A DNA stretch of 64,000 nt, taken from Paracrocinitomix mangrovi. Lineage in GTDB: Bacteria; Bacteroidota; Bacteroidia; Flavobacteriales_D; Crocinitomicaceae. Shown piece by piece: positions 44,698 through 51,961 of the stretch (position 1 is the stretch's first letter; each line of letters opens with the position of its first letter). Both the position numbers and the translations under genes were made by a program. Below the pieces are notes generated by a model that did no database searches, had not been told where the DNA came from, and saw only the letters and a list, made by a program, of their open reading frames with translations. The stretch lies in assembly GCF_019740355.2 (NCBI RefSeq), contig NZ_CP091819.1, positions 124,001 through 188,000 of the forward strand. Direction: 5' to 3'.

Positions 44698-44765
44698 TTT
44701 TAATTATCTTAAGGTTACCATCAAAATTTTATGACATACACATAGTGAATGAAAAATCAATCACT

Positions 44766-45710
44766 ATGAAACATACATTACCTCTTTTAGTTTTTTTATT
44801 GTTTGGGCAGCTTTCTTTTGGGCAACAAGACAAACAATTAACGCATTATATTTTTGATAAAATGTCTTACAATCCTGCCGCAACGGGATTTAATGGCTTT
44901 TGTGGAACATTTATTTACAGAAATCAATGGGATAGAGTACAGGATGCCCCAAATACTACCTTGATTAATATTCAGGGCAATATTCCTCAACAAGGTTTTG
45001 GTGTAGGAATGTCATTCACTAATGATGCAATTGGTTTTCAAAGAAATAACACCCTAACATTGAATGGTGCTTTTCATTTAAAAACTCCTGCAGGTGTATT
45101 GAGTAGTGGAATAGGTTTAGGAATCATCAATGTAGCTTTTTCACCTAATTGGATTCCTCCACAAACTCCTTATGATCCTGTATTACCGGGTTCAGTTGCA
45201 GGAACCGGTTTTGATATGAATTTAGGCTTGTATTGGCATGGAAATAGACCTTACTATGTTGGAATTTCAACCACACATGTTGCTCCTGCTAATCTCACTA
45301 ATATCAACTTTAATATTGCCAGACATTATTATGTTTTAGCCGGATACAACTACGCACTTAATACAGATAGAAAAATTGATTTAAAACCTAGCGTATTAAT
45401 TAAAGCAGATGGTGCTACAATGGTTTTTGATGTGAATGTAATGGGAGACTTTTGGTTGAATACGCATTCTTATTTATGGGGAGGCCTTTCTTATAGAATG
45501 GCAGACGCCGTGGCTATTAGTGCAGGTTTTGCTATTTCACCAAGAAGAAATGTAAAAGTGAATATGATGAAGTTCGGTTATTCATTTGACATTATGACAA
45601 ACCCTTTAAATACTTATGGAAAAGGTACGCATGAGCTGATGTTTAACTTCTGTATTTTTCCGCCACCTAAAGGATTTGGAAGACATGGAAATCCTTTTGT
45701 GTTAGAGTAA
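44766..45710 (+). CDS. PorP/SprF family type IX secretion-associated membrane protein
   Basis: About 314 residues from the ATG at 44766, which starts a proper signal peptide (MKHTLPLLVFLLFGQLSFGQ); the longer GTG reading is rejected. The mature protein has the PorP/SprF fold: YNPAATGFNGFCGTFIYRNQW near the N-terminus and many beta strands to the end (LWGGLSYRMADAVAISAGFA). Family members help place T9SS cargo such as SprB on the cell surface. It is not next to the SprB-repeat gene (6973) but could serve it. A terminator follows. Confidence 0.92.
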   Translation: MKHTLPLLVFLLFGQLSFGQQDKQLTHYIFDKMSYNPAATGFNGFCGTFIYRNQWDRVQDAPNTTLINIQGNIPQQGFGVGMSFTNDAIGFQRNNTLTLNGAFHLKTPAGVLSSGIGLGIINVAFSPNWIPPQTPYDPVLPGSVAGTGFDMNLGLYWHGNRPYYVGISTTHVAPANLTNINFNIARHYYVLAGYNYALNTDRKIDLKPSVLIKADGATMVFDVNVMGDFWLNTHSYLWGGLSYRMADAVAISAGFAISPRRNVKVNMMKFGYSFDIMTNPLNTYGKGTHELMFNFCIFPPPKGFGRHGNPFVLE

Positions 45711-45766: not shown

Positions 45767-45980
45767 ATAATAGGTTGTAAAACTTTAGGTACTAGAAGTA
45801 TAAATATATACGTGTAAACACCTAGTAAAATTGCGGCTTATACGCCTTAGGGCTGAATTGAATAAAATTTACATGTGTTTAAACACTGAATTTATCCTAA
45901 AAAAAATTAAGGTCGTCGAAAATTGTAGTTCTAGTTAAAATCAAATAGATATTTTGATTGTCAGAAACCTACTACAACCC

Positions 45981-47129
45981 ATGACTGACTATTTACTTCC
46001 TAGCCATCAGGAATTTGCACAATTTAGATTACAATCAGACCCTTTAGCTGATGAAGTAATTGCCAAAATTTTATCTGTTGGTGATCAATCAAATATTAAT
46101 GCTGTATTTAAAACATTGCGCAACAATGCGGATGTAGATCAAACTGAACTTCCAGCAGTAATTCAGGCATATTTTAGACAAACTGAGATTTTGCCTGATT
46201 GGACAGATCCTGAATTATTGAAAATTGGAGAAGACGTTTTTGCGCGATTCGGTCCACAAGTATCTATGTGTCTTTTGTGCAAATCATTACCTGAAGCATA
46301 TGCGTGTGCTAATGGTGCAAAGGTATTGTACACAACAGGGAGGATGACCGAACATCAAGGATCATTAAAGATGTTCACCAGAAGATTAATGGAAACATCT
46401 CAATTTGTTATGAATGTTTGCAGTAAAGGAGGAATGGAACCTGGTGGAAATGGAATTGTAACTGCTCAAAAGGTGAGATTGATTCATGCTTCAATTCGTT
46501 ATTTTATTTTAAAGCACGGATGGGACACTCAACAATTTGGATTGCCTATTAATCAGCAGGACATGGCAGGAACGCTTCAATCTTTTTCAACTTTAGTTTT
46601 AGAAGGATTGGAAAAATTGGATATTCAATTATCAGAAGAAGAAAAACAAGGTTATTATCACTCCTGGCGAGTGGTTGGCCATATCATGGGATTAGACGAC
46701 AGATTGAATCCTGTATCACATAAAGATGGATTTAAACTGGGCAAGGCAATTTTAGCTGATCAGGTTAAAGGCTCAGAAGAAGGAGAGGAGCTTACCAAAG
46801 CTGTGATAGATTTTATGAAAGGATTAATGCCCGGCAATTTATTTGATTATACACCAGAAGTATTAATTAGATATTTAGTAGGAGATGAGATCGCAAAGGA
46901 ATTAGGAGTAAATCATCACAATAGTTTGATTGAGTTAATTGCGCCTCGATTATTAGGTCACCTTTTTCATGAAATGTCTGAAATAGAAGATAAGGTTCAT
47001 TTCATAAAAACTTTGGCAGAAAACTTCAATGGTAAATTGCTTCAAGGAATGTTGAACCATTTTAATGAAGATAAACAAGTGAGATTTTACATCCCTCCTG
47101 ATCTCAAACATAATTGGAAATTGGCTTAA
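45981..47129 (+). CDS. MpaB/Lcp-like oxygenase family protein (DUF2236)
   Basis: About 382 residues from the ATG at 45981 (a TTG nine codons earlier is an alternative). The sequence matches the helical MpaB-type family: ARFGPQVSMCLLCKSLPEAY, then VRLIHASIRYFILKHGWDT and GYYHSWRVVGHIMGLDDRLN. Known relatives include the latex-clearing protein Lcp (a b-type heme oxygenase cleaving polyisoprene) and the fungal MpaB oxygenase. Arg and His in the VRLIHASIRYF and YHSWRVVGHIMG helices are candidate heme or cofactor ligands. The next gene starts 5 nt away, and the third follows it by 4 nt, so they form one operon. Confidence 0.85.
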   Translation: MTDYLLPSHQEFAQFRLQSDPLADEVIAKILSVGDQSNINAVFKTLRNNADVDQTELPAVIQAYFRQTEILPDWTDPELLKIGEDVFARFGPQVSMCLLCKSLPEAYACANGAKVLYTTGRMTEHQGSLKMFTRRLMETSQFVMNVCSKGGMEPGGNGIVTAQKVRLIHASIRYFILKHGWDTQQFGLPINQQDMAGTLQSFSTLVLEGLEKLDIQLSEEEKQGYYHSWRVVGHIMGLDDRLNPVSHKDGFKLGKAILADQVKGSEEGEELTKAVIDFMKGLMPGNLFDYTPEVLIRYLVGDEIAKELGVNHHNSLIELIAPRLLGHLFHEMSEIEDKVHFIKTLAENFNGKLLQGMLNHFNEDKQVRFYIPPDLKHNWKLA

Positions 47130-47134
47130 TCATT

Positions 47135-47833
47135 ATGAGAGATATAAATTATTGGATCAACTTAAAGGAGTTTTCTCCATATGAATTAATAGTTACTTCT
47201 ATTGGTTGGATATTTTGGATCACATTGTATATACTGATCATTAAAAAAATTAGAGAGGAAAAGTATGTTGAAATGCCATGGATATGTGCTTTAGGGAACA
47301 TCTCATGGGAGTTTACCTGGGGCTTCTTTTTCTATCAGACAATAAATTTGGGAGAGTTTTTCGTTTGGAGTTATAGAGCCTGGTTTTTCCTTGATATTTA
47401 TATTTTATGGGGTGTTTTTAAGTATGGAAAAAAACAAATTGACATTCCTGAAATAAAACAATATTTCAATTGGTTGGTATTGGCGGTAATAGCTATTTGG
47501 ATTGCACTTTATGCCACTTTTATTGCCTCAGGATTCGATCATAAATGGGGGAGTCAATCAGCCTACATTTCAAATGTGGTTATTTCCACATTATTTATCA
47601 CACTGTTTTTAAGACAATGGAGGCAAAGAAAATTTTCAAAGTTAATGGCTTGGTGTAAATGCTTGGGTACACTGGCTTATACGATCGTCTATTTTAATTT
47701 TGATTTTCCAAATATTTTCGTTCATGTAATTGGAGGAGTTGTATTTTTGTTGGATATAAGCTACTTAATTATGCTTTACAAAATGCAAGGGAAGAATTGG
47801 AAAGTTGAAGAGCAAATTGTAAACGCAGCATAA
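47135..47833 (+). CDS. Seven-helix membrane protein, transmembrane terpene cyclase-like
   Basis: About 232 residues from the ATG at 47135, with about seven hydrophobic helices. The second helix has GNISWEF (Trp58, Glu59), and the last helix has FLLDISYLI with Asp207. The acidic pair and helix count match the transmembrane terpene cyclase family (PaxB-like), where such Glu and Asp are thought to protonate the substrate. The similarity is judged by eye and should be treated as a hypothesis. The adjoining oxygenase gene would suit a terpenoid pathway. Confidence 0.55.
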   Translation: MRDINYWINLKEFSPYELIVTSIGWIFWITLYILIIKKIREEKYVEMPWICALGNISWEFTWGFFFYQTINLGEFFVWSYRAWFFLDIYILWGVFKYGKKQIDIPEIKQYFNWLVLAVIAIWIALYATFIASGFDHKWGSQSAYISNVVISTLFITLFLRQWRQRKFSKLMAWCKCLGTLAYTIVYFNFDFPNIFVHVIGGVVFLLDISYLIMLYKMQGKNWKVEEQIVNAA

Positions 47834-47837
47834 TAAA

Positions 47838-50741
47838 TTGAATACTCCAAACAACATAGGAACCGAATATGGATCAGGATTCACTTTTCCCAGAAATTCT
47901 TTTGGGAAAAAGGATCTAGTCCAGTATATATCATCTAAAATACGATCAAAAAATCCGGATGATATTTGCCTATTTCATGTTGAAGGAGGCTCAGGTGTTG
48001 GTAAAACCTTTTTAATAGAGGCAATTTGTGAGGAGTTAGTAGAATTTACATACTTAAAAGGAGATTATCAAATAAACGGACCCTCTGACCCATATCAGGG
48101 AATAGCCCAACTTTTTAACTCTCCATTGAGACATTTTACCGCAGAAAGTAATGAGGCATCAATTAAATGGATGCAAGAGTTAAAACATGAATTTACACAG
48201 GATGCGGCTTATCTTCAAGTAGTTTTTCCTTTGCTGAAAAATATCTTCTCTAAAGATCAATTGGATCAGGACTTGACTGATAAATCGCCTCAGTTAGTTC
48301 AGAATAAAGTCAATACGGTACTAACCAGATTTGTTAAATTTTTTATTGACCGAAGTGAATCAAAATTAATCCTCCATATTGATAACATTGAGCAGGCAGA
48401 CAGTTCTTCAATTGCATTTTTAACTTATTTATTAAGACAAAAAGTACCTGGTTTGATTTTATTCCTAACCAATGGAACAGATAATATCAACCACCCTGTT
48501 GAATTGTCAAATTTAATTTCAACAGGTGTTAAGTTTGCTGATTATAGTCACGTAAAACTTGAGAATCTAACTAAGATTCAATTGAACGATTTTCTGGATG
48601 CAATAAATGTTGAATTTGAGAACGGATCAAATTCGGTTGAATCATTTTACAATGCTACTGATGGTAATTTCAGAGCCATTAAAGAAGTTTTAGAAAGGTT
48701 ATACCTGGATAAAGAACTTGTTTACAAGAATGATAAATGGCAAGTATTATCAAAAGTTCAATTTACGCAAAGTCAGGATCAGATCTTAGCCAAATTGTTG
48801 GAATATAAAGTTCAAACGCTAGATGAAGAAGAGTTAAAGATTTTAACATTATCGGTTTGTTTTTACCCTCACATCAATGTTCCGTTTATTCATAAAATAA
48901 CTTTACATCATGAAGATGATATTCACGACATTTTTCAGAAATCTGTAAAGTTAGGAATCATGATTCCTTTAGGTGCAATGGATCAAAGCAAGGATGATGC
49001 CTTAAGGTTTACCAATTACGACTTTAAAGACGCCTATGTACAAGAATATTTGGCTACACTGATAAGTAAAAATGTTAGGGCAGAAATCCATAAGAAAATA
49101 GCGGATTATTACCTGTCGGGTTCACTTCTTGGACTTCAAGATCGAGATGTTTACCAGGCTGCTTATCATCTTAATTTGGCCATTGACAAAGGGGCATCTA
49201 AAGACGAGAAAAGAATAACAATTGAACTGAATATAAAGGCAGCAAAAAGAGCACGCATGTCAGCTTCTTTTCAAGCAGCTCTAGAATATGCAAAAAATGC
49301 CTTAAAGTATTTAGAAGATTTCAATTGGAAAGCAGATTATGAGCTTTTACATGAATTGATCAGTGAAAGCTGTCCATTGGCCAAAATAAATAATCAATCA
49401 AAGCTTTCAACAAGCTTATATGATATAGCTAAAAAAGAGCTTAAAAAAGAGCACTTGATTAGATTGGAATTAGTGAAGTTGATATTGGATATTAAAGATG
49501 GAGAACTTAAAAAGGCCTTAGAAAGAGGAGTTGAAAATATCAGAAAATCAGGAATTAGAGTTCCGAAAAATGTGAATAAGCTAGATGTTGGATTAGCTTT
49601 TGTTCGAACAAAAATGGTTTTGGGTAACAAGACAGAAGAACAAATTTTATCATTACCTGAACTAAAAAATGAAGAGGTTAAATTGGCTTTTAAATATTTC
49701 TTTTGGGTTTTTAGAACAGCACAATATCTGAATCCAATGTTGAATGGTTATTTGGCGCTTAAGAAGTTGCGTCTAACCCTAAAGCATGGAATAAATGGAG
49801 ATTCATTTAGTGGTTTGATGGCTTATGGTGTGATTGTAGGAGCCGGCACAGATGATTATAAATCTGCATACAAGTATTGTGAGTTGGGAGATAAAATAGC
49901 TCAAAAATTTGGCAACGAATCTGGTGAAGTTGAATTTGGAAGAGCCATTTATAAGGCCTTTAAATACCCTTTAAAAGATACTATTCCTTATTACGAATCA
50001 GCTAGAAGTAAATCTCATGCAGCAGGAGATTTTATTGCATCTGCAGAAACTACCATTAATGAATCACTTACCTATTTTTCTGCAGGATATTCCTTGCATG
50101 ATGTGCTTGCTAAAGTAGAACAGAATCTGACATATTGTGAGCTATTGGATACCACTGATTTTATCGAATTTCAAATTGTATTTAAGTACCAGGTAAAAGA
50201 ACTCATGCAACTTGAGCAGGATTATCAAGAAAGAGAGATCAAAGCAATTATTAATCATAGCCAAAATACTATGATTAAAGGAATGTACGGAATAATGGAA
50301 ATGGTTAAATACACTTTTAATAAGAATTGGAAAAAAACACTTCAAGTAGCTCAAGAATATGAGAGTTCAATTCAAAATTTAACCGGACTATATTTTCAAA
50401 CAGAATTTACATTTTTAAGAGGATTAGCAGCTGCAATGATGCTGAAGGAAAATCAAAATGACTTCAAAACCAGTGATCTTAACAAATGGCTAAAAACAAG
50501 CATTCAAAAAATTACTAAATGGTCTGATGCAGTAGCTGATAATCATTTACACAGACTTAGTATTTTGAATGGTGTAAATGAATTATCAAATGGTGATTAT
50601 GCTACCTTAGAAAAAGGTGCTGAATTAGCTCAAAACGGAGGTTTTAATCATTACGCCGGCTTGTCTTATGATATTCTTTCTGATTATAAAAACCAGGATG
50701 ACTATATAGACCATTACAAAAAATGGGGAATGCAAGTTTAA
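47838..50741 (+). CDS. Large AAA-type ATPase with helical repeats
   Basis: This is a 967-residue protein starting at TTG (47838), 4 nt after the previous stop. It has a P-loop GGSGVGKT (residues 50-57) and a Walker B-like KLILHIDNIEQA near residue 175, typical of the AAA_16/STAND predicted-ATPase group. The C-terminal ~550 residues are helical and contain TPR-like repeats (for example DYKSAYKYCELGDKIAQKFG). Unlike many relatives it has no kinase, HTH or other recognised output domain. It may be a regulator or a chaperone-like ATPase for the cluster. Its stop overlaps the MFS gene's stop by 4 nt, tail to tail. Confidence 0.8.
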   Translation: MNTPNNIGTEYGSGFTFPRNSFGKKDLVQYISSKIRSKNPDDICLFHVEGGSGVGKTFLIEAICEELVEFTYLKGDYQINGPSDPYQGIAQLFNSPLRHFTAESNEASIKWMQELKHEFTQDAAYLQVVFPLLKNIFSKDQLDQDLTDKSPQLVQNKVNTVLTRFVKFFIDRSESKLILHIDNIEQADSSSIAFLTYLLRQKVPGLILFLTNGTDNINHPVELSNLISTGVKFADYSHVKLENLTKIQLNDFLDAINVEFENGSNSVESFYNATDGNFRAIKEVLERLYLDKELVYKNDKWQVLSKVQFTQSQDQILAKLLEYKVQTLDEEELKILTLSVCFYPHINVPFIHKITLHHEDDIHDIFQKSVKLGIMIPLGAMDQSKDDALRFTNYDFKDAYVQEYLATLISKNVRAEIHKKIADYYLSGSLLGLQDRDVYQAAYHLNLAIDKGASKDEKRITIELNIKAAKRARMSASFQAALEYAKNALKYLEDFNWKADYELLHELISESCPLAKINNQSKLSTSLYDIAKKELKKEHLIRLELVKLILDIKDGELKKALERGVENIRKSGIRVPKNVNKLDVGLAFVRTKMVLGNKTEEQILSLPELKNEEVKLAFKYFFWVFRTAQYLNPMLNGYLALKKLRLTLKHGINGDSFSGLMAYGVIVGAGTDDYKSAYKYCELGDKIAQKFGNESGEVEFGRAIYKAFKYPLKDTIPYYESARSKSHAAGDFIASAETTINESLTYFSAGYSLHDVLAKVEQNLTYCELLDTTDFIEFQIVFKYQVKELMQLEQDYQEREIKAIINHSQNTMIKGMYGIMEMVKYTFNKNWKKTLQVAQEYESSIQNLTGLYFQTEFTFLRGLAAAMMLKENQNDFKTSDLNKWLKTSIQKITKWSDAVADNHLHRLSILNGVNELSNGDYATLEKGAELAQNGGFNHYAGLSYDILSDYKNQDDYIDHYKKWGMQV

Positions 50742-51961
50742 GCTTCCTGAAACACTTTTCTATTGGTTAATCCTACAATTAATCCAATAAAAGGTAAGGC
50801 TGCAATCGCCCAGTAAATGTGTGATCCATAATACATGTAAAGCGTAGCACCAAGTACAGGGAAAATAGCCAGAGCTAACGAATTCAAAGATTCGCTAATT
50901 CCCATAATTTCGCCTTGTTTTTGAGGGTCAGCATGAATTGATATCAATGAATTAATTGTTGGGAAACACAAAGAAATCCCCAGGTTCATGATGTAGTAGA
51001 AAGCAATGTAAGCGTAGATATTATCTGTTAAAGTGATAAAAAACAATCCGAAAGTAGAGAAGATTAACCCTAAAATCAGTGTTTTACCTGCTCCAATTTT
51101 TCTGATCACCCACTTAGAAATTACAACTTGGTTGAAGAATAAAAATACCCCAACTACCAACATGAATTGACCTAGTTGAACCTTAGTAAATTCAAATAAG
51201 TCTATTAAGAACAAGGCAATCGTTGATAAATAAAAAGCCATCATCATTGACACCAATAACTTTAAAATAAAAATGAGTTTAATGATGGGCTTAGGCTGTA
51301 TTTCTCTGATTCTTCTTAGAATAAAAATGTTGTAAATAATAGGTTTTCTTTCTCTCGGTCTTCTTTTCTCTTCAGGATGTGATTCTTTAATCCAGAAAAA
51401 GAGGGTGATCAAGGTGATAACTGAAATTCCTGCGGCTAAAATAATGGCTCCCATGCTTCCTAAACTCCCTGAAGCTGCAATTCCTCCAAGTCCCGGACCT
51501 ACTATCATACCAATTGCGGATATCCCACCTAAGTAAGAAAAGATGTAGATTTTTTCCTCACGACTTGTGATGTCTGATACGTAAGCAAAAGCTACAGATG
51601 TATTACCTCCTGTCAATCCGTCAAAAATCCTGCTAACACCAATAATGAGTAGTGGTATTGATAATCCCCAAATGCTAACATTAGGTAATGTTAGCGCTAT
51701 AATAAATACTATCCAACTCAGTAGTGTTCCAGCCTGACTGATTATTAATACCGGTTTTCTTCCTCTTGAATCTGACATGGCACCTAAATAAGGTGCCCCA
51801 AAAAATTGAAAAGCTGAATAAAGTGTCATGAACAAACCATACACCCATTCTTGTGCGCCGTAATCTTCCACAATAAATGGTAGTACAGGCATTAGAATAC
51901 TGAATCCAAGTACGTTAACAAAGGTGAGTAAATAGGCTGGTAGTAATTTTTTGTGTATCAA
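50738..51961 (-). CDS. MFS transporter, TetA/DHA1-like
   Basis: This is a 407-residue protein with 12 predicted membrane helices. It appears to start at TTG (51961), with a typical MFS opening (LLPAYLLTFVNVLGFSILMP). The motif A loop is GAMSDSRGRKPVLIIS, and the middle loop is basic. DHA1-type members usually export drugs or metabolites, so it could export a product of the adjoining cluster (tail-to-tail arrangement). The substrate is unknown. Confidence 0.9.
   Translation of the reverse strand: MIHKKLLPAYLLTFVNVLGFSILMPVLPFIVEDYGAQEWVYGLFMTLYSAFQFFGAPYLGAMSDSRGRKPVLIISQAGTLLSWIVFIIALTLPNVSIWGLSIPLLIIGVSRIFDGLTGGNTSVAFAYVSDITSREEKIYIFSYLGGISAIGMIVGPGLGGIAASGSLGSMGAIILAAGISVITLITLFFWIKESHPEEKRRPRERKPIIYNIFILRRIREIQPKPIIKLIFILKLLVSMMMAFYLSTIALFLIDLFEFTKVQLGQFMLVVGVFLFFNQVVISKWVIRKIGAGKTLILGLIFSTFGLFFITLTDNIYAYIAFYYIMNLGISLCFPTINSLISIHADPQKQGEIMGISESLNSLALAIFPVLGATLYMYYGSHIYWAIAALPFIGLIVGLTNRKVFQEA

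Follow-up and report, generated by a model that had tools for sequence, protein, structure and literature searches.

We analysed a 64,000-nucleotide (nt) stretch of the genome of the bacteroidotan Paracrocinitomix mangrovi (contig NZ_CP091819.1, positions 124,001 to 188,000, hereafter the window) and concentrated on a group of three closely spaced genes on its forward strand. The genes are predicted to encode an MpaB/Lcp-family haem oxygenase (MpaB), a Pyr4-like transmembrane terpene cyclase (TMTC) and a large STAND-type ATPase, and they are followed by a transporter gene on the opposite strand (Table 1). A preliminary description of this DNA had reported an operon containing a 967-residue ATPase, with its genes 4 to 5 nt apart and an MFS gene tail to tail with it, and our analysis confirmed this four-gene observation. 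The spacers measure 5 nt between mpaB and the TMTC gene and 4 nt between the TMTC and ATPase genes, and the MFS gene overlaps the ATPase stop by 4 nt. mpaB has a possible alternative start at a TTG at position 45954, upstream of its ATG; the ATPase frame opens with TTG, with no ATG at that place. The genome consists of a single 4.37-Mb contig, in which MpaB, TMTC and the ATPase have one match each. Rfam and tRNA scans revealed one tRNA-Ser and no match within the operon.

Table 1. Genes at the locus, with positions counted from the first letter of the window
Feature	Position	Strand	Basis
MpaB/Lcp-family (PF09995) haem oxygenase, 382 amino acids	45981..47129	+	PF09995 match; ATG start
Predicted Pyr4-like transmembrane terpene cyclase (TMTC), 232 amino acids, seven transmembrane helices	47135..47833	+	PF25129; ATG start
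STAND-type AAA_16 ATPase, 967 amino acids	47838..50741	+	AAA_16; TTG start
Tet(A/B/C)-like MFS transporter	50738..51961	-	MFS_1 E 1.5e-47

MpaB is known from mycophenolic acid biosynthesis. The oxygenase of the window, previously described as MpaB/Lcp-like, matched MPAB_Lcp_cat (PF09995) with an E value of 7.2e-19 (69.2 bits, cut-off 23), and sequence search yielded the rubber oxygenase LcpK30 (5o1m/5o1l, E 2e-20) as its sole solved relative. Alignment, together with the LcpK30 numbering given in PMC5522427, placed R135, T139, R166 and H169 of the window protein at LcpK30 Arg164, Thr168, Arg195 and His198. These haem-pocket residues, of which H169 is the proximal histidine, were present in all 35 MpaBs linked to a TMTC, that of the window included. 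Arg164 and Thr168 are needed for LcpK30 activity, and Lys167 is found in only 59% of Lcps (PMC5522427). At the Lys167 position the 35 linked MpaBs have Glu (31, including the window protein), Gln (3) or Ala (1), and at the Glu148 position 34 of them, again including the window protein, have Gly. The retention of the haem pocket together with the changes at these two positions indicates that the window MpaB is not an LcpK30-type rubber oxygenase. It contains no strongly hydrophobic segment; the 12 MpaBs paired with type-1 membrane kinases (see below) have a hydrophobic N terminus (19-residue hydropathy of 2.05-3.23).

The second gene product matched PF25129 (Pyr4-TMTC) with an E value of 3.1e-14 (53.7 bits, cut-off 27). 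An AlphaFold2 model built from 31 sequences (mean pLDDT 91.7, pTM 0.85) predicts seven long transmembrane helices, as expected for the seven-helix protein with Glu59 and Asp207 that had been described, and both residues were found at those positions. In the bacterial Pyr4-type cyclase DmtA1, E60 is essential; Y33F abolishes activity, N56A leaves it poor, and the D214A variant gives only very small amounts of product (PMC6173783). Judged by motif and offset, without aligning DmtA1, Y32, N55, E59 and D207 of the window protein correspond to DmtA1 Y33, N56, E60 and D214, and the mutual spacing of the first three is the same in both proteins. Y32, N55, W58, E59 and D87 were invariant in 34 of 34 MpaB-linked TMTCs (window included), and at the D207 position 30 have Asp, 3 have Asn and one has a gap (Asp in 30 of the 33 with a letter). 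By sequence and predicted active-site residues, the membrane protein is a Pyr4-like cyclase. The similarity to transmembrane cyclases on which the preliminary description had staked its proposal is therefore present, both in a family score above the cut-off and in the four DmtA1 residues.

Sequence searches found no solved TMTC structure, and Foldseek searches with the model gave no match at E<=0.001. VIA-align paired the model with the KDEL receptor (6i6b; Z 14.2, root mean square deviation 3.3, 178 aligned residues) and with SWEET (Z 11.6), and no solved terpene cyclase was among the structure-search matches listed. These matches suggest that the modelled helices adopt a SWEET/PQ-loop-like seven-helix arrangement; helical models reach such Z values more easily, and the fold is not informative on function. 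Outside the MpaB set, the catalytic Glu is replaced by Ala in five TMTC sequences. In a Saprospiraceae metagenome-assembled genome (MAG), two tandem TMTC genes follow one mpaB (L039, 1555-2933).

The ATPase matched AAA_16 with an E value of 1.7e-10 (42.1 bits, cut-off 32.6). No other Pfam family was found at E<=0.001, and no kinase, cyclase or DNA-binding output domain was recognized. A match to TIGR03903 was weak (30.8 bits, cut-off 706). Related ATPases occupy the same place in loci L016, L018 and L103 (29-33% identical to that of the window) and in L011 and L012 (19-20%), and the Walker A motif, GxxGxGK, was invariant in an alignment of 5 ATPases.

The linkage of MpaB and TMTC was examined across genomes. 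Among 200 genomes of the family, 9 carried TMTC and 28 carried MpaB. MpaB was found in 8 of the 9 TMTC-bearing genomes and in 20 of the 191 others (Fisher test, 4.6e-7, relatedness ignored), and it adjoins TMTC in all 8, namely the window and seven of the eight fetched relatives; the ninth TMTC genome (G086, locus L015) has no PF09995 match. The proposed three-gene unit is thus conserved in relatives, with MpaB beside TMTC in all eight family genomes that have both (window included) and a related ATPase in five loci. A phylum-wide draw recovered TMTC from 24 of 395 genomes, and MpaB is adjacent in 5 of the 24 (window, L093, L098, L100 and L102). Cultured genera that carry the operon include Algoriphagus, Jiulongibacter and Lacihabitans.

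Within the set of 35 loci scored below, TMTC directly follows MpaB in 30 (29 if the second of the two L039 TMTCs is taken), and the gap is <=34 nt in 26 of these. The regulator gene lies between the two in L023, L024 and L050, which means that gene order has changed while gene content has stayed. In two Fulvivirga species a gene for a 216-residue protein is inserted between MpaB and TMTC (L028:1359-2009 and L029:9302-9952); the one scanned, from L028, belongs to DUF6989. Four loci have no MpaB beside TMTC and still carry a signalling gene on the 3' side: L015, L096 (a histidine kinase), L099 (a guanylate cyclase) and L135. In the last of these (L135:3344-7264) a 580-residue protein resembling flavin adenine dinucleotide (FAD)-dependent amine oxidases occupies the MpaB slot, before TMTC and a SpoIIE phosphatase with six transmembrane (six-TM) helices. 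L136 (6568-10505) appears to have the same layout. L101 ends at a contig end and has a histidine kinase gene on the 5' side. In three Chloroflexota MAGs (L052, L054 and L055) a STAND ATPase gene faces the TMTC match in convergent orientation; the ATPases of L052 and L054 also carry a guanylate cyclase domain, and in L055 MpaB overlaps the TMTC frame.

In order to determine what accompanies the pair, 45 MpaB loci, collected solely by similarity to TMTC, were reduced to 36 by removal of nine duplicates and to 35 scorable loci by removal of L102, which is cut by a contig end. The partner was defined as the first gene after MpaB on its strand that is neither MpaB nor TMTC and encodes at least 150 amino acids. 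It was set by hand to the large ATPase in L028 and L029 (216-residue gene between), in L031 and in L055 (convergent strand); in L031 an overlapping open reading frame (ORF), retained instead of TMTC, was skipped. The partner belongs to a signal-transduction family in 35 of 35 loci, or in 31 of 34 by the strict rule. On the 5' side of MpaB, a signalling gene was found in at least 5 of 32 loci (9 controls scanned singly; for the others, 25 of 76 families were listed), and the difference between the two sides gave a Fisher value of 4.9e-14 with rows that are not independent. A signalling protein is the constant partner of the MpaB-TMTC pair.

The partners are of eight or more kinds. Seven show only the STAND AAA_16 domain (window, L011, L012, L016, L018 and L103, and L055, which is convergent and cut by a contig end). 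Longer proteins combine Pkinase, AAA_16 and GAF domains with HisKA-HATPase (L028 and L029), guanylate cyclase (L023, L024, L050 and L100) or SpoIIE (L031) domains, and in L039 a Pkinase protein is cut by a contig end. The membrane-bound kinds comprise a type-1 histidine kinase in 12 loci, a HisKA_2 kinase followed by a receiver gene in L013, L014, L017, L021 and L022, a guanylate cyclase in L040, a SpoIIE phosphatase in L098 and a cut 7TMR-DISM protein in L033. Of the type-1 kinases, those of L027, L032, L037 and L047 were scanned singly and the other eight were assigned by tally and homology. The L021 kinase was called from its second ORF (HATPase_c) and the histidine kinase profile. Kinases of L017 and L021 are split over two ORFs, and the genes of L033, L039 and L047 are truncated or split.

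As a control, we inspected six MpaB loci from the 20 family genomes that have MpaB and lack TMTC. None of the six had a signalling gene on the 3' side, nor did any of the four scanned on the 5' side. The idea that MpaB itself carries the signalling link was rejected for these six genes on this count. The unlinked MpaBs matched a profile of the linked proteins with E values of 1e-34 to 1e-44, and linked loci outside the profile scored 5e-53 or better. A DUF1003 gene precedes the unlinked mpaB in one genus (L146:6114-6812 and L147:3802-4506), and a pirin gene lies beside it in another (L148 and L149).

The type of regulator has changed while the enzymes have stayed. On a maximum-likelihood tree of MpaB plus TMTC (34 rows, L031 not in; 21 of 31 inner branches well supported), the output domain, scored in 4 states, required 6 changes against a minimum of 3, which indicates repeated but not free exchange of outputs. 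The sensor class (3 states) required 3 changes, and the seven well-defined partner classes (31 rows) required 7, the minimum being 6. Without the long branches L098 and L100, the 6 remaining classes needed 5 changes and the 3 remaining outputs needed 4. A parsimony count with 10 labels (10 changes, minimum 9) was set aside, since three of its labels are truncated or single cases.

Inspection of the membrane-bound partners revealed that one six-helix sensor domain is shared by histidine kinases, guanylate cyclases and a SpoIIE phosphatase, each encoded directly 3' of a TMTC. A profile of the type-1 kinase sensor found the cyclase sensors with E values of 4.5e-40 and 4e-38 (20 sequences searched; 24-33% identity by blastp), and the L135 SpoIIE phosphatase matched the sensor profile at 7.6e-26 and SpoIIE at 7e-11. 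A model of the sensor (pLDDT 87.3) resembles the membrane domain of the adenylyl cyclase Rv1625c (7yzk; Z 15.6, root mean square deviation 3.7, 193 aligned residues), and the next chain scored Z 9.4. The quorum-sensing receptor CqsS has been used to replace the Rv1625c membrane anchor, and the cyclase became ligand regulated (PMC4821796). One universal sensor domain was considered and rejected, since the HisKA_2-linked sensors match those of the type-1 kinases and cyclases weakly or not at all. The L098 SpoIIE sensor gave a moderate match to the HisKA_2-type sensor.

The MFS gene behaves differently from the other three. Its product scored 165 bits against tet_MFS_A_B_C_D (cut-off 475) and stayed below the cut-off of every NCBIfam model listed (25 of 33 families). 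A tblastn search with it found no match in the 34 relative loci (stretches of 3.9 to 20.7 kb; other exporter types not searched), and on this result the transporter was rejected as a member of the system, to which it probably does not belong. The preliminary description had envisaged a terpenoid or polyprenoid pathway with its own regulator and exporter. The regulator part stands, and was if anything understated, the signalling partner being constant; the exporter part falls with the MFS count. Nor is the pathway self-contained: no relative of two UbiA query proteins lies in the MpaB loci (phmmer; UbiA proteins are diverse), and the third protein varies while the enzymes stay. Elsewhere in the genome there are 2 SQS_PSY matches, 4 UbiA matches (3 over the cut-off) and 3 polyprenyl synthase matches, which places isoprenoid supply outside the operon. 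On the upstream side, a PorP/SprF gene (type IX secretion; 44745-45710) directly precedes the operon and is not a constant neighbour in the relatives examined.

These observations suggest a hitherto undescribed mode of bacterial signalling, with a putative terpenoid-like molecule as its basis. On balance, and with moderate confidence, we favour a reading of the sequences in which the cassette makes or modifies a lipophilic terpenoid-like molecule and the neighbouring protein is the receptor or regulator for it. MpaB would oxidize a prenyl chain drawn from the housekeeping isoprenoid pool, and TMTC would then protonate an alkene or epoxide through E59 and close a ring. The lipophilic product, in or near the membrane, would be bound by the adjacent regulator, whose output could be phosphotransfer, a cyclic nucleotide, a phosphatase switch or, in the window, some partner of the STAND ATPase. 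The cassette would be constant, with receptor and output varying by lineage. Oxidation and cyclization might occur in the reverse order, or the pair might remove the ligand rather than make it. Partners that lack DNA-binding domains (guanylate cyclases, SpoIIE phosphatases and histidine kinases) would suit signal output better than a transcription regulator situated in a cluster. The broader proposal, that Bacteroidota use a terpenoid-like signal read inside or between cells by a co-encoded six-TM or STAND receptor whose kinase, cyclic-nucleotide or phosphatase outputs are interchangeable, is more tentative, and we would give it slightly less than an even chance.

Several observations weigh against this interpretation. 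The sampled loci represent one TMTC subfamily. For the seven STAND partners (the six AAA_16-only proteins, that of the window included, and L055), which show no output domain, signalling is a matter of family name, and excluding them lowers the count to 28 of 35. As 12 of the 35 rows are one kinase type and 7 changes against a possible 6 make each regulator class nearly one clade, the number of independent cases is below 35. The window MpaB lacks LcpK30 residues Lys167 and Glu148. The sensor family is also wider than the system: a search of 194 genomes of the order, scoring <=15 candidates per genome, returned 30 hits in 25 genomes, 4 of them beside a TMTC, and exclusive use of the sensor by MpaB-TMTC loci was accordingly rejected. 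These four (L104-L107, within ~1.5 kb of TMTC) are the four best-scoring hits; L104 is the profile row L032. The L040 genome carries a further copy of the sensor (L134), and neither TMTC nor MpaB is present in the 13-kb stretch examined there. TMTCs also occur in other settings. Those of L090 and L092 have UbiA prenyltransferases as neighbours, an arrangement like that of product clusters, and L092 also has FAD enzymes; set against the signalling loci, they show that at least two types of TMTC locus exist in the phylum, biosynthetic looking and signalling. In 14 of the 24 TMTC genomes of the phylum-wide draw, all of family group f29, which is Chlorobia-like in gene content, TMTC occurs without MpaB in the stretches examined and with no constant partner by eye (L080-L089, L091, L094, L095 and L097). 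The f29 TMTCs are often near ATP synthase genes or genes resembling FAD or geranylgeranyl reductases, and L084 has a PAS histidine kinase 3' of TMTC.

The strongest rival is a sensor complex without biosynthesis, which we consider unlikely and rank above the other alternatives, a product cluster, lipid maintenance and hitch-hiking, in that order. MpaB would sense O2 or redox state through its haem, and the TMTC-like seven-helix protein would be a ligand-binding transmembrane relay; both would act on the adjacent kinase, cyclase, phosphatase or STAND protein, and no terpenoid would be made. Lcp belongs to the globins and resembles globin-coupled sensors (PMC5522427), the TMTC model shares the fold of KDEL receptor and SWEET, which includes a receptor (Z 14.2), and the MpaB loci have no relative of the two UbiA queries. 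TMTC nevertheless keeps the DmtA1 residue set, which is more than binding requires, and MpaB keeps the equivalents of Arg164 and Thr168, on which LcpK30 activity depends; in L135, a FAD oxidase in place of MpaB likewise fits chemistry better than haem sensing. The reading of the preliminary description, in which the locus is a conventional terpenoid natural-product pathway that has a regulator within its cluster and possibly an exporter, seems to us a little less probable than the sensor complex. Both enzyme families serve terpenoid or meroterpenoid biosynthesis (PMC13307353 for bacterial Pyr4-like cyclases), and L090 and L092 show TMTCs beside UbiA in this phylum, in L092 with FAD enzymes. 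The loci with MpaB look otherwise: the two UbiA queries have no relative there, the MFS gene is conserved in 0 of 34 relatives, and guanylate cyclases and SpoIIE phosphatases, neither of them transcription regulators, are found among the partners.

Doubtful to a similar, slightly greater degree is the possibility that the pair maintains membrane lipids or quinones, modifying or repairing oxidized prenyl chains of menaquinone, carotenoids or polyprenyl lipids while the regulator reports oxidative or membrane stress. Housekeeping pools of the genome would offer the substrates, and a gene for a 165-residue protein, which from a motif may resemble a thiol peroxidase, comes after the operon in L016; but the patchy occurrence of TMTC (9 of 200 genomes in the family, 24 of 395 in the phylum) would be unusual for the upkeep of universal lipids. 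We regard chance as very improbable. On this view signalling genes, being abundant in these genomes, would sit 3' of the pair by accident; some 5' genes are signalling genes too (at least 5 of 32), and several loci lie, by eye, in regions rich in them. Hitch-hiking does not account for a one-sided 35 of 35 (31 of 34 by the strict rule), for MpaB being followed immediately by TMTC in 30 of 35 loci with 26 gaps of <=34 nt, for a changed order with kept content in L023, L024 and L050, or for 0 of 6 where MpaB lacks TMTC.

To our knowledge, Pyr4-like cyclases and MpaB-like oxygenases are known only for natural-product synthesis or rubber degradation. Among the titles and abstract openings listed in our searches of the open-access literature, none joins TMTC or MpaB to signalling, which is weak evidence of novelty, and no paper on MASE7 was found. 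A 2026 survey of bacterial Pyr4-like cyclases kept 264 of 1107 sequences, those near terpenoid genes (PMC13307353); this filter could drop loci like the present ones, and the main text of the survey contains no word starting with "Bacteroid" or "MpaB". We rate as known both the enzyme families and the kind of operon that joins biosynthesis to a receptor; the new element would be the terpene-type chemistry and the changing receptors. If the proposed signalling system is real, terpenoid-like molecules would join the bacterial signal repertoire, and a ligand class would be at hand for orphan six-TM sensor domains similar in fold to the membrane domains of adenylyl cyclases. It would also account for bacterial TMTCs that may be passed over when genomes are mined for products.

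Comparison with known systems places each component. The predicted cyclase shares with the Pyr4-like TMTCs (Pyr4, DmtA1, XiaE/XiaH and TylF; PF25129) the family score, the seven modelled helices and the DmtA1 residues. The known members lie in product clusters, such as the zig cluster with its UbiA-like prenyltransferase and P450s (PMC13307353), whereas the group described here lies beside signalling genes. The oxygenase has the domain of MpaB and LcpK30 (5o1l/5o1m; PF09995), with the proximal His and the equivalents of Arg164, Thr168 and Arg195 in 35 of 35. The window protein differs from LcpK30 by Glu for Lys167 and Gly for Glu148, and it lacks the hydrophobic N terminus seen with the 12 type-1 kinase partners. 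The long partners share Pkinase, AAA_16 and GAF domains, and one of three output ends, with the TOMM kinase/cyclase-like kinase-STAND-GAF regulators, from which the window protein and five relatives differ in having AAA_16 only, without kinase or output domain. The closest parallel in layout is the pair formed by the autoinducer synthase CqsA and its receptor CqsS. By analogy, the MpaB-TMTC-regulator arrangement may be comparable to it, with biosynthetic genes beside a six-TM receptor-like domain and a swappable output; a biosynthetic gene next to one of receptor type is seen in 35 of 35 loci, by family names only. The enzymes here, however, would be an oxygenase and a terpene cyclase, the receptors are other proteins, some of them cytosolic STAND ATPases, and the ligand is putative.

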